64,000 nt of DNA from Geothermobacter ehrlichii (GTDB lineage Bacteria; Desulfobacterota; Desulfuromonadia; Desulfuromonadales; Geothermobacteraceae), in the NCBI RefSeq assembly GCF_008124615.1, contig NZ_VNIB01000008.1:1-64000 (forward strand), given 5' to 3'. Each line of letters opens with the position of its first letter. Position 1 is the first letter of the stretch. A model generated the notes under the pieces. That model was not told the origin of the DNA. It was given only the letters and a program-made list of their open reading frames with translations, and did no database searches. Shown one piece after another: positions 50,751-62,267 of this stretch. A program made the translations under genes and the position numbers.

Positions 50751-50769
50751 GGTTTCGGTCCGGGATGAA

Positions 50770-50933
50770 ACCTGAATCGGTGAGTTCATCACCGGTGGAT
50801 GGCACAAGTCATTGATCTGTCAGCGTTTTTCAAAAGTCGCCGGCGAACCTGCGGGGGCGTCTGGGATTTTCTGAAAACCTGTTCAGGCCAGGCACTTGCG
50901 TTCTCCATCCGGCATGGACTCATTGATTCCGGT
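50770..50933. mobile_element. 164-bp MITE-like palindromic element, copy 1
   Basis: The element is 164 bases with long imperfect inverted arms of about 69 bases each around a 26-base centre. It begins ACCTGAATCGGTGAGTTC and ends with the complement-type GACTCATTGATTCCGGT; the centre contains CCGGCGAACCTG and GGGGGCG. It shares length, termini and most bases with 61330-61493. It sits upstream of the minus-strand unknown gene, so its RNA could fold in that leader. No transposase is encoded. Confidence 0.8.
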
Positions 50934-50972
50934 GAAAGCATTCCTCCAATTAAAACTGAATTATGTGTAAAT

Positions 50973-56560: not shown

Positions 56561-56862
56561 GTCCCCTGTTTAGCAGAAAGAGGGACCGCCTGGCAATCTG
56601 AACCTTGACACGGGACGGAATTCGCCGTTAACTTGGACAAAAATTAATGAACGATTACCTTTTGTGGGAAAAACTGCTTCCGTTTGTGTGGCCTGAGTCC
56701 GTGGGCAATGGGATGGAGAGTGTACGTGTTTGGCCTGAACGGGCTTGTCAAAAATCGCCAGGCGTACCCAGGTTCATCGGCGACAGGCAAAAGCGTTCTC
56801 TGCGGCTTGCGCATCAGGGCAGAGCTGTTAGCCTTCTAATGATAGACAGATAAGGAGCCCGG
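56561..56862 (+). promoter_or_regulatory. Leader region of ppsR with a candidate promoter
   Basis: A 302-base gap between divergent prmA and ppsR. TTGACA at 56605-56610 and TTAACT at 56628-56633 are 17 bases apart and read toward ppsR. The remainder is more AT-rich than its surroundings, with no hairpin or riboswitch that I recognise; AAGGAG precedes the ppsR ATG. A short open frame at 56647 has no support. Confidence 0.5.
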
Positions 56863-57669
56863 ATGTCGGCCCGACGGCACATTTTTCTTCTTTCCGATGC
56901 CACCGGCGAGACCGCCGAGAAGATGGCATCGGCCGCCTTGTCGCAGTTCGACGAGAAGAACGTGCGTCTGTTGCGCATCAGCAATGTCCGCAACAAGAGC
57001 CAGATCTACCAGGCACTGGATGACGCTTTGCAGCAGAGGGCGCTGGTGATCTACACCATCGTCAACCGGGACCTTGCCCGGCTGGTGCGCGACGAATGCG
57101 ATGCTCTGGGGCTGCCGGCCATCGACCTGCTGACCCCGCTGCTGGGCCGGCTGGCGGCCTTTTTCGGTCGCTCCCCGCAACAGACACCGGGACTTCTGCA
57201 CGGGGTCGACGAGGACTACTTCCGCCGCATCGAGGCGATGGAGTTTGCCGTCAAGCATGACGACGGCCAGGAGCTGCGCCATCTCGACCAGGCCGACATC
57301 GTGCTGGTCGGGGTCTCCCGGACCAGCAAGACGCCCCTTTCGATCTACCTCTCCCACCGGGGCTGGAAGGTCGCCAACGTGCCGCTGGTCCCCGGTATCG
57401 AGCCGCCGCCGGAGCTGTTGCGGGTCGACCCCGACAAGGTCGCCGGCCTGGTCATCGATCCGCAGCGGCTGGTGGAGATCCGGGCGGCGCGCATGCGCAA
57501 CCTGGGACAGGACCCGAGACGGGCCTATGCCGATTACGAGAAGGTGGAGGAGGAGATTCGTTTCTCCCGCGCTCTGTTCCGTCGGCATCCCTGGATCGTG
57601 GTCGATGTGACCGGCAAGGCGGTGGAAGAGACGGCGAACGAGGTTCTGGTCAAGCTGCGTCTCAAGTGA
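56863..57669 (+). CDS. ppsR: Bifunctional kinase-pyrophosphorylase regulating PEP synthase or PPDK
   Basis: A 268-residue DUF299 protein. The P-loop [14 protein letters not shown] near residue 148 is the family's signature, with [21 protein letters not shown] at the start and DDYRRRIEA-type central sequence. It inactivates PEP synthase or pyruvate phosphate dikinase by ADP-dependent phosphorylation of a threonine and reactivates it by phosphate-dependent removal, which fits a host with pyruvate-centred metabolism. AAGGAG is seven bases before the ATG. Confidence 0.92.
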
Positions 57670-59961: not shown

Positions 59962-61335
59962 ATGCGGCTTGCCCTCAAACATCAGATCATCCTGGCGCCG
60001 GCCATCGTTCTGCTGCTGATGAGCCTGCTTCTGGGCTTTCTCCAGTACTCCTACTGGGATCTTTCCCTCAAGCGCCAGGCGTCCCGCAAGCTGACCACTC
60101 TCTTCATCGCTCTGGCGGAAGCGAATCTGGCCAGTCAGCGCATGCAGGCCCTGGCGGTGCGCTTCAGCCGGCTGGAGATTGTCGATGTCAGCCGCCTGGA
60201 GGAGCTGGCCGAGCTGCACAAGCATCTGAAGGGGGCGGCGAAACGGATTCTCGATCTGGTCACCCTGTCGGACGAGACGGAGAAGATATGGCGACAGGCG
60301 GTCGAGGATCTCGATCCGGAGCAGGGATTCGACAGCCGGCGCTTCCTCGACGCCCTCAACCGACTGCGACCCGAGCTGGAGAAGCTGTCGGAGCTGATCC
60401 AGAATGAACGGGAGCGGCTGCGGGATGTGCACAACCAGGACATCGACGCCCTGGTGGCGCGCACCACATTCGTTTCCATCGTCGTTCTCGGCTTTTCCAT
60501 CCTGCTGGGCATCTTCCTCTCCCTCACCCTGGCGCGACGGATTCTGCGCCGCATCCAGTACCTGTCGGAGAGTGCCGGCCGCATCGCCCGCGGCGACCTG
60601 ACACCGCCGAAGGCTCCCGAGATGGTGCGGGACGAACTGGACGCCCTGGCGCTCTCCATCAATCACATGACCGAAAAACTCATCCGGGTGGTCGGCACCG
60701 AAAAGCTGCTCGAAGGGGCCGAGGAAGAGCGGCGGCGCATCGCCATGGACATCCACGACCAGACCCTGGCCGATCTTTCCTCGGTACTGCGTGGCCTGCA
60801 GGAGCTGAAACAGCGGCCGGACCCGGACCGGCTGGCCCAGCTGGAAGCGGAGCTGCAGAAAACCATGTCCAGCCTGCGCGAGGTGATGAACAACCTGCAT
60901 CCGCAGAGCCTGGAGATTCTCGGGCTTGGTGCCACTCTCGAGGCGCACGTCGAACAGCTGCAGGCCAAGGACGGCGCCATGAAGTATCATTGTTATATCC
61001 AGCCGGAGCTGCAGGATCTGAAACTTCCCCGTCTGATCAGCCTGACCCTCTACCGGGTGGCGGTGGAGGCCCTGCACAACGTCATCAAGCACGCTCGCGC
61101 CAGTCGCTGCGAAATCTGTCTGGAAAAACGGGGACAAGGGCTGCTGCTGGTGGTCGAGGACAATGGCATCGGCATGCCCCGCCAGGTAGCGGGGCATGGG
61201 CGGGGCCTGAACAACATCCGGGAGCGGGCCAGGGCCATCGGGGCCAGGGTCGAATGGAAGACGTCGCGTTTTTCCAGCGGCACCCGCTTCGAACTGCTGC
61301 TGCCGCTCGCCGCGGCGGGGCAAAGTGAGACCTGA
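59962..61335 (+). CDS. NarX/DegS-type sensor histidine kinase
   Basis: A 457-residue kinase. Two transmembrane spans (IILAPAIVLLLMSLLLGFL and FVSIVVLGFSILLGIFLSLTL) enclose a ~140-residue helical periplasmic domain, then HAMP, a HisKA_3 box EERRRIAMDIHDQTLADLS and an HATPase domain with VVEDNGIGMP and GHGRGLNNIRERA. HisKA_3 kinases pair with NarL-type regulators, and one lies at 61509. The last codons and the TGA stop are inside the 164-bp palindromic element (copy 2), which separates the kinase from its regulator. Confidence 0.9.
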   Translation: MRLALKHQIILAPAIVLLLMSLLLGFLQYSYWDLSLKRQASRKLTTLFIALAEANLASQRMQALAVRFSRLEIVDVSRLEELAELHKHLKGAAKRILDLVTLSDETEKIWRQAVEDLDPEQGFDSRRFLDALNRLRPELEKLSELIQNERERLRDVHNQDIDALVARTTFVSIVVLGFSILLGIFLSLTLARRILRRIQYLSESAGRIARGDLTPPKAPEMVRDELDALALSINHMTEKLIRVVGTEKLLEGAEEERRRIAMDIHDQTLADLSSVLRGLQELKQRPDPDRLAQLEAELQKTMSSLREVMNNLHPQSLEILGLGATLEAHVEQLQAKDGAMKYHCYIQPELQDLKLPRLISLTLYRVAVEALHNVIKHARASRCEICLEKRGQGLLLVVEDNGIGMPRQVAGHGRGLNNIRERARAIGARVEWKTSRFSSGTRFELLLPLAAAGQSET

Positions 61336-61493
61336 ATCAATGTGTTCATCTCCGGCGAATAGCACAATTCATTGACCTGCCTGCACTTGGCAAAAATCAC
61401 CGGCGAACCTGTGGGGGCGCCTCAGATTTTTGCCAACCGCTTTCAGGCCAGGCACTTGCGCTCTTCATCCGGCATGAATCCACTGATTCAGGT
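61330..61493. mobile_element. 164-bp MITE-like palindromic element, copy 2
   Basis: A second copy of the element at 50770-50933, same length. The 69-base left arm (61330-61398, starts ACCTGAATCA) and right arm (61425-61493) are imperfect complements, with a perfect 12-bp inner pair TTGGCAAAAATC/GATTTTTGCCAA. The stop codon of the upstream kinase (TGA 61333-61335) lies inside the left arm, and the regulator start is 16 bases beyond the right end. Transcription of this two-gene operon must pass through the hairpin. Confidence 0.85.
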
Positions 61494-61508
61494 GAGTGAG
61501 AGGAGATC

Positions 61509-62267
61509 ATGGACAGAGTGAAAATGAACATCCTGATCGCCGAGGACAATCCGAAGGATTTCGAATTTCTCGAAAAGATGCTGGGAGAATGGGACCTCGA
61601 GCTGCAGCTGCAGCGGGCGCAGGACGGTCTGAGCGCCCTGGAGCTGGCGCTGGAGATGGATCTGCCGCTGGTGATCAGCGACATCCAGATGCCGCAGATG
61701 AACGGCATCGATTTTGCCCGCGCCCTCTGGCAACGGCGCCCCGACGCCCGCATCGTCTTCTGGAGCCAGTACAAGGACGAGATGTACGTGCGTTCGCTGG
61801 TGCGCATCGTTCCGCCGGAGACCGTATATGGCTACATCCTCAAGTCGAACACATCGGACCGCATCTCCACGGCCATCCGCACCGTGCTGCTCGACGAGCA
61901 GTGCTGGATCGATCCGGAGGTACGCAAGGTGCAGGGGCGGGCGGGCCATGCCCAGACAGCCCTGTCCGACATCGAGTACGAGGCGCTGGTCGACATCTCC
62001 CTGGGCCTGACCGACAATCTCATCGCCCAGCGGCGCTACCTTTCCCGGCGCGGGGTGCAGAGCCGGCTCAACTCTCTCTACAGCAAGCTCGGTGTCGACC
62101 AGGAGCAGTTTCAGGCCGAAAATGTCGGTGATGCCTTCAACCTGCGCAACCGCGCCGTCGCCGTCGCCCTGCGGCGCGGCCTGGTCAACGCCTTCGAGCT
62201 GAAGCACGAGGAAGAGGAGTTCCAGTCCTGGCTCAAGCGCTTCCGGGCGACCCGCAGGACGAGCTGA
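61509..62267 (+). CDS. NarL/FixJ-type response regulator
   Basis: A 252-residue regulator. The receiver domain has ILIAEDNPKDFEFLEKML, the phosphorylated aspartate in VISDIQMPQMNGIDF near residue 58, and a lysine in YILKSN. The C-terminal part (LSDIEYEALVDISLGLTDNLIAQRRYLSRRGVQSRLNSLYSKLGV) is LuxR-like but with an unusual turn, and the extra 60-residue tail (AVALRRGLVNAFELKHEEEEF) is not typical. GAGAGGAG lies just ahead of the ATG. It is the partner of the kinase at 59962. Confidence 0.85.
   Translation: MDRVKMNILIAEDNPKDFEFLEKMLGEWDLELQLQRAQDGLSALELALEMDLPLVISDIQMPQMNGIDFARALWQRRPDARIVFWSQYKDEMYVRSLVRIVPPETVYGYILKSNTSDRISTAIRTVLLDEQCWIDPEVRKVQGRAGHAQTALSDIEYEALVDISLGLTDNLIAQRRYLSRRGVQSRLNSLYSKLGVDQEQFQAENVGDAFNLRNRAVAVALRRGLVNAFELKHEEEEFQSWLKRFRATRRTS

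Follow-up and report, generated by a model that had tools for sequence, protein, structure and literature searches.

The window, by which we mean the whole stretch of 64,000 nucleotides of Geothermobacter ehrlichii DNA that was analysed, holds two full copies of a near-palindromic element and a decayed third copy (Table 1). Copy 2 lies at the junction of a sensor kinase gene and a response regulator gene, so the original prediction placed it correctly between a kinase and its regulator. The kinase stop codon is copy 2's own TGA at 61333-61335, and from there 173 bp follow before the regulator starts. In G. hydrogeniphilus, which has no element at this place, the kinase frame continues into the regulator gene and the two genes overlap. 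The decayed third copy is intergenic, upstream of a gene at 56863, and the pair of copies first reported from this DNA was in that respect incomplete.

Table 1. Copies of the element in the window, their target-site duplications and the genes that adjoin copy 2.
Feature	Position	Strand	Remarks
MITE copy 1	50771..50932	- (strand modelled)	162 bp; from alignment, covariance model and folding
Copy 1, left target-site duplication	50766..50770	.	TGAAA
Copy 1, right target-site duplication	50933..50937	.	TGAAA
Decayed third copy	56692..56818	+	left arm readable, right arm eroded; 17 bits, E 0.041 (covariance model)
Sensor kinase gene	59962..61335	+	adjoins copy 2; named from translation
Copy 2, left target-site duplication	61326..61330	.	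TGAGA
MITE copy 2	61331..61492	-	162 bp; at the sensor kinase / response regulator junction
Copy 2, right target-site duplication	61493..61497	.	TGAGT; 4 of 5 bases match the left one
Response regulator gene	61509..62267	+	downstream of copy 2; named from translation

The element starts with CCTGAATC and ends with GATTCAGG, limits that are set by the target duplications. It had been described as two copies of 164 bp; both exist and they are similar, with a gapless alignment over the whole element at 79% identity (BLASTN), but the mobile unit is 162 bp and the outermost bases, one per side, are part of the target duplication. The inverted arms of about 69 bases in that description are palindromic indeed, but the palindrome is longer and comprises 81 mirrored column pairs across the whole unit, while the GGGGGCG centre can be seen in both copies as stated. 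The covariance model of the family was made from 109 copies of exactly 162 bp, reduced to 52 at 93% identity. It gives copies 1 and 2 E-values of 5e-37 and 3e-29, matches that are to be expected by construction since both copies are among the 52 sequences.

The two copies belong to a large family. At E<=1e-3 the covariance model places the element at 48 separate loci of the window's own genome, and 38 of these copies are full length (85 matches were merged by hand to these 48, because a palindrome scores on both strands), and a BLASTN search with copy 1 gives 40 scored matches there. A 19-base end of the element has 78 hits in the same genome and the reversed pattern, used as control, has none. 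With copy 1 as query the family is found in 17 of 98 genomes including its own, i.e. in 16 of 97 relatives, and with a copy from genome G017 as query in 47 of 277 genomes of the class, spread over 21 of 82 genera. Every one of the 47 is from the window's order (Desulfuromonadales-type) or a closer group. A scan with a core pattern gave at least 120 stretches, and those among the 80 listed come from G. hydrogeniphilus and from metagenome-assembled genomes, labelled mostly as Desulfuromonadales or Deltaproteobacteria and in one case as Desulfovibrio. The highest numbers of terminal hits among the 15 genomes counted are those of G003 and G004, from the same family as the window's genome, where the 14-base end matches 307 and 328 times with no more than one mismatch; halving these numbers suggests about 150 copies in each. 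The possibility that no further copies exist, which would have spoken against a mobile element, is thereby excluded.

Some copies have an altered structure. One in the window's own genome (C19:5872-6081) has a tandem duplication of about 24 bp in its right arm, and two short forms (66 bp at C8:110924-110989 and 82 bp at C15:62640-62721) have kept both ends and lost most of the interior. In genome G033 partial copies stand in tandem beside full ones at C1:1222531-1222793 and C6:79155-79438.

The structural marks of a MITE are present. The element has terminal inverted repeats, CCTGAATCAGTGAG...CTCACTGATTCAGG, and its size is 162 bp in 96 of 144 copies, which is below 500 bp and leaves no room for a transposase gene. 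The 144 are the copies with ends adequate for counting duplications, out of 204 model matches that remained of 214 after removal of duplicates. The direct repeats that were to be looked for turned out to be exact 5-bp duplications, flanking 55 of the 144 copies (38%) compared to 1.3% of shuffled ones, and lengths of 3, 4, 6, 7 and 8 bp are found in 0-0.7% of copies. The duplicated bases favour T in the first position and A in the last. Exact duplications are scarcer in the own genome (3 of 26) than elsewhere (52 of 118; p 0.002), and the most alike pair among the 30 aligned own copies is 92.5% identical, while G017 has copies that are 98% identical. The copies in the window's genome thus look old and fossil-like.

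To the many copies can be added sites that are filled in one genome and empty in another. The site of copy 2 is free of the element in G. hydrogeniphilus (L103), and the orthologous sites of two other own copies, L026 and L027, are element-free as well. Flanks could be aligned for eight own copies, and three of these (L013, L026 and L027) were taken as empty sites. At L002, L009 and L025 there is no element at the compared site, but unaligned stretches of 196-432 bp remain, and at L007 and L018 an element is present within the compared stretch. An empty site for L025 at L149 was rejected, the alignment being too loose. A common insertion for L007 and L094 was likewise rejected, since their duplications differ (TCCTA/TCCTG and CAATG/CAATG), and we read them as two insertions into one intergenic region. 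The full copy at L026 (C15:17682-17949) stands intergenically beside a shortened derivative of 84 bp, the element-free orthologous site being L160. Its neighbours are what we take to be an rpsP-like gene and then a gene of a ribosomal-protein/rimM/trmD-like operon.

A candidate for the transposase that moves the element is found in the IS1380 family. The transposase of G017 matches NF033539 with 301.7 bits (cut-off 180) and PF13701 with 88 bits. Fifteen loci with relatives of this transposase, the two copies in G017 among them, were compared; four of them (L238-L241) are cut by contig ends and their ends are uninformative. Nine of the 15 are units of 1,689-1,702 bp whose two ends each match CCTGAATC[A/C]GTGAG with at most one mismatch. 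Six of these nine are flanked by exact 5-bp duplications (TGGAA, TAAAA, TTATA, TTTAA, AAACG and AAAAT) and one, L229, by an exact 6-bp duplication, TAAAAG, and at L199 and L230 there is no matching duplication. Outside the nine, L237 has ends with one or two mismatches and an exact 5-bp duplication (ATATA/ATATA), and L235 has one good end. The MITE and the IS1380 elements thus have the same ends and, in most cases, the same duplication length. The similarity between their ends extends for up to 28 bp at 86% (BLASTN), while a BLASTN comparison of the interior of 10 insertion sequence units with 161 MITE copies gave nothing better than E 0.40. We therefore rejected the idea that the MITE is an internal-deletion derivative of the insertion sequence.

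The distribution of the two over genomes points in the same direction. Among the 277 genomes, 47 have the MITE and 29 an IS1380 match at E<=1e-20, and 10 have both (p 0.016, kinship ignored). Where the match is longer than 200 aa and 72% identical or better, the MITE is present in 7 of 8 genomes against 40 of the 269 others (p 2e-5), a threshold that was picked afterwards and a p-value that ignores relatedness; if two genomes whose short fragments are 75-84% identical are added (G026 and G077, both without the MITE) the link drops to 7 of 10. Eleven of the 29 genomes with a match are not members of the order, and the MITE is absent from all eleven. The protein query derived from G017 found no IS1380 match in G001-G003 or the genome of the window (E<=0.001, and E<=1e-20 in the wider search), and in G004 only a 19-aa fragment, despite the many terminal-repeat hits of G003 and G004. 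PF13701, which is above its cut-off in 3 of 16 genomes and is less telling than the G017 query, has one match in the own genome (C6:463-849), which is interrupted, scores below the cut-off and lacks ends of this kind. Judging from the ends, the duplications and the co-occurrence, the family is very probably a MITE that is mobilised in trans by an IS1380 transposase. The original prediction of a MITE-like element moved by a transposase encoded elsewhere is supported by the repeats, the duplications, the empty sites, the number of loci and the insertion sequences with the same ends in relatives.

The palindrome is more than a pair of similar ends. Over the 81 mirrored column pairs of 161 aligned copies, 67.5% are Watson-Crick pairs, and the share falls to 17-31% if the axis is displaced by 1-6 positions. 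Folded as RNA, both strands of both window copies are more stable than 200 of 200 dinucleotide shuffles each, the four folds having energies and z-scores of -88.4 kcal/mol and -10.5, -57.8 and -3.4, -76.0 and -6.2, and -70.7 and -7.0. Of the 48 pairs predicted, 27 vary on both sides with pairing kept among the 52 non-redundant copies, and 94.9% of the cells are paired, against 88.8% after shuffling (0 of 500 shuffles reach the observed value) and 28-49% in slid versions, over which the structure has an advantage, this alignment being also its source. In the 30 own copies taken by themselves there are 1575 Watson-Crick cells, where the maximum of the shuffles is 1537. Since 104 of the 161 copies came from a pattern scan that fixes letters in one arm, the other 57 were used for a re-test, and these have 2995 Watson-Crick cells against a shuffled maximum of 2759; among the 11 pairs checked, 22/141 and 72/91 are not above the shuffles and 18/145 equals their maximum. 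For the whole family, arms that vary without keeping their pairing are in this way excluded. The earlier suggestion of a selected hairpin, based on equal length and compensating changes, is half right: the covariation is real over many copies, though it may or may not bear on the two in the window, and the near-equal length reflects an element of fixed size. No Rfam family matches either window element at the gathering threshold, and the best match at a relaxed threshold, to copy 2, has 18 bits and E 0.28 where the gathering score is 70; a known Rfam RNA was therefore rejected at both thresholds.

The simplest explanation for arms that agree would be that one transposase must bind both ends, and this does account for the outer 14 bp that the MITE has in common with the insertion sequence. 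As the sole cause it is very unlikely, since pairs that change on both sides are common even at 50-80 bp from the ends (columns 55/114, 64/106, 76/95 and 78/93), deep inside the element, where no similarity to the insertion sequence was found.

The two strands of the palindrome are not equivalent. One of them folds more stably in 160 of the 161 copies, with means of -88.1 and -59.3 kcal/mol as RNA, and with DNA parameters the same strand is the more stable one, again in 160 of 161. The sole exception is copy 1 of the window, and as the 160 copies share ancestry they are not 160 independent facts. G-U pairs present in at least 10% of copies occupy 17 pair positions on the stable strand and 3 on the opposite one (p 0.003, tested against 1:1), and when pair types in at least nine copies are counted the ratio is 16 to 4 (p 0.012). 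On internal branches 60-64 changes go from Watson-Crick to G-U and 24-28 from Watson-Crick to A-C, with p 0.016-0.18 against the unpaired columns over five random tie-breakings. On terminal branches the corresponding numbers are 220 and 144, where 51-52% G-U would be expected from the unpaired columns (p 0.0005-0.002). There is no bias among the pair types confined to one or two copies (32 types of A-C and 35 of G-U). Taken together these numbers are suggestive of a preference for the fold of one strand, weakened by the lack of bias in the private types and by an internal-branch excess that is not firm, while the excess on terminal branches is.

The same counts bear on whether the arms could have been kept alike by replication itself, through template switching between the arms (quasi-palindrome correction) and with no selection on the fold. 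Such events are described (PMC8794818) and would yield paired changes in one step, and double Watson-Crick changes do occur, 20-24 of them within one internal branch and 30-33 within one terminal branch, depending on the tie-breaking. But one-sided intermediates are common, as the internal branches show, their lean towards G-U at 17 positions versus 3 is not what such copying predicts, and nine mismatches that we picked within the arms stay fixed, being Watson-Crick pairs in only 0 to 10 of 160-161 copies. They have not been erased, which argues against arm-to-arm copying as the only cause. We regard this explanation as rather unlikely. The covariation deep in the interior, the fixed mismatches, the consistently more stable strand and the surplus of G-U over A-C intermediates would together fit another reading, in which propagation depends on how one particular strand folds, as RNA or as single-stranded DNA, into a hairpin whose internal loops are fixed, while the element is carried by a DDE transposase of a kind that normally would need the ends only. 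We put this forward tentatively, as a reading that may well turn out to be wrong.

Another matter is if the single resident copies are constrained today. The private substitutions of the 30 own copies are at least as frequent in conserved columns (0.0222) as in the others (0.0184), and in paired columns (0.0219) as in unpaired ones (0.0150). On terminal branches 172 changes from Watson-Crick to mismatch stand to 364 transitions in paired columns; in unpaired columns, with transversions in place of the disruptive changes, the ratio is 61 to 139. The private changes, together with disruptive changes that are not scarce, suggest that resident copies decay freely. The lean towards G-U on terminal branches runs against this; the two approaches disagree and the question is unsettled. 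Our inference is that the hairpin, in the form of RNA or of one DNA strand, was of importance to the lineage while it spread.

If instead the element were a regulatory RNA or DNA element of the host, ERIC-like or a leader regulator, each site would be kept by selection on the host. The gene context has features that would fit. There is a gene on both sides of 143 of the 161 copies, at a median distance of about 60 bp each, with genes called by a home-made caller that errs on starts and antisense frames. Divergent neighbour pairs outnumber convergent ones by 41 to 11, and copies between genes on the same strand prefer one orientation (57 vs 34, p 0.02), the favoured one being such that the transcript bears the less stable strand. 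The covarying arms and the terminal-branch lean towards G-U on one strand would fit as well. Both orientations do occur, however, and the two window copies differ in orientation relative to their genes. Orthologous sites lack the element, private substitutions are no rarer in conserved or paired columns, the private pair types have no G-U/A-C bias, and disruptive changes on terminal branches are not scarce. Maintenance by the host at each site is thus quite improbable.

The most rational explanation, which we hold with considerable confidence, is that the element is a gene-less, near-palindromic MITE of 162 bp with ends of the IS1380 type and a covarying hairpin, presumably mobilised in trans and present as a set of fossils in the genome of the window. 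The DDE transposase would come from an IS1380-family element about 1.7 kb long that has the same ends, and it would cut or copy the MITE in trans and insert it between genes at AT-rich sites, where 5 bp become duplicated. The hairpin, with its covarying pairs and nine fixed mismatches, could have served the lineage as it spread. In the own genome fossil copies would then be left with no detectable partner insertion sequence, and one of them, copy 2, supplies a kinase gene with its stop codon.

MITEs have been found in related bacteria before. Chunjie of Geobacter uraniireducens (Chen et al. 2008, via the review PMC10969869) has about 38 copies and is like the present family, judging from the parts of the review that describe it, in being a Geobacter MITE that is intergenic with one copy in an operon. 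It differs in its length of 178-235 bp, as against the near-constant 162 bp here, the two being compared by description only, and the name IS1380 is absent from the review. ERIC/IRU and other small bacterial repeats, as treated in portions of PMC2229807, are also about 100-200 bp long, give transcripts with long stem-loops, have target duplications and occur in related genera. Most of the repeats covered there have TA ends and no known partner insertion sequence except RUP, whereas here the 5-bp duplications are AT-rich and the partner is an IS1380 element. Streptococcus pneumoniae offers a parallel in RUP and IS630-Spn1 (PMC2229807), a MITE and an insertion sequence paired through common ends, but with an IS630 partner and a TA target instead of IS1380 and 5 bp. 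The IS1380-family elements themselves (NF033539) share their 14-base ends with the MITE and, for the most part, a duplication of 5 bp, and differ from it in having a transposase gene, a length of about 1.7 kb and no detectable interior similarity. A MITE of Paracoccus yeei has, in the source excerpt, been tied to IS1182, and the MITEs of Anabaena are, in the excerpt concerned, called type II and without similarity to insertion sequences there.

Portions of Geobacter and Pelobacter genome papers (PMC2700814, PMC2996986 and PMC3543383) describe multicopy sequence families, some of them palindromic, and their supplementary alignments may hold an earlier, unnamed sighting of this family. A literature search on IS1380 and MITEs gave no IS1380-mobilised MITE among the matches listed, and one with the letters of the element's ends gave only papers with unrelated titles among the matches listed. 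The element is thus a MITE of a known sort, and an order-wide repeat that we did not find named in the literature searched. Tying such a repeat to a specific transposase family makes its mobility testable, and the covariation far from the ends makes it a test case for whether the hairpins of MITEs serve the element, the host or, if they result from template switching, neither.
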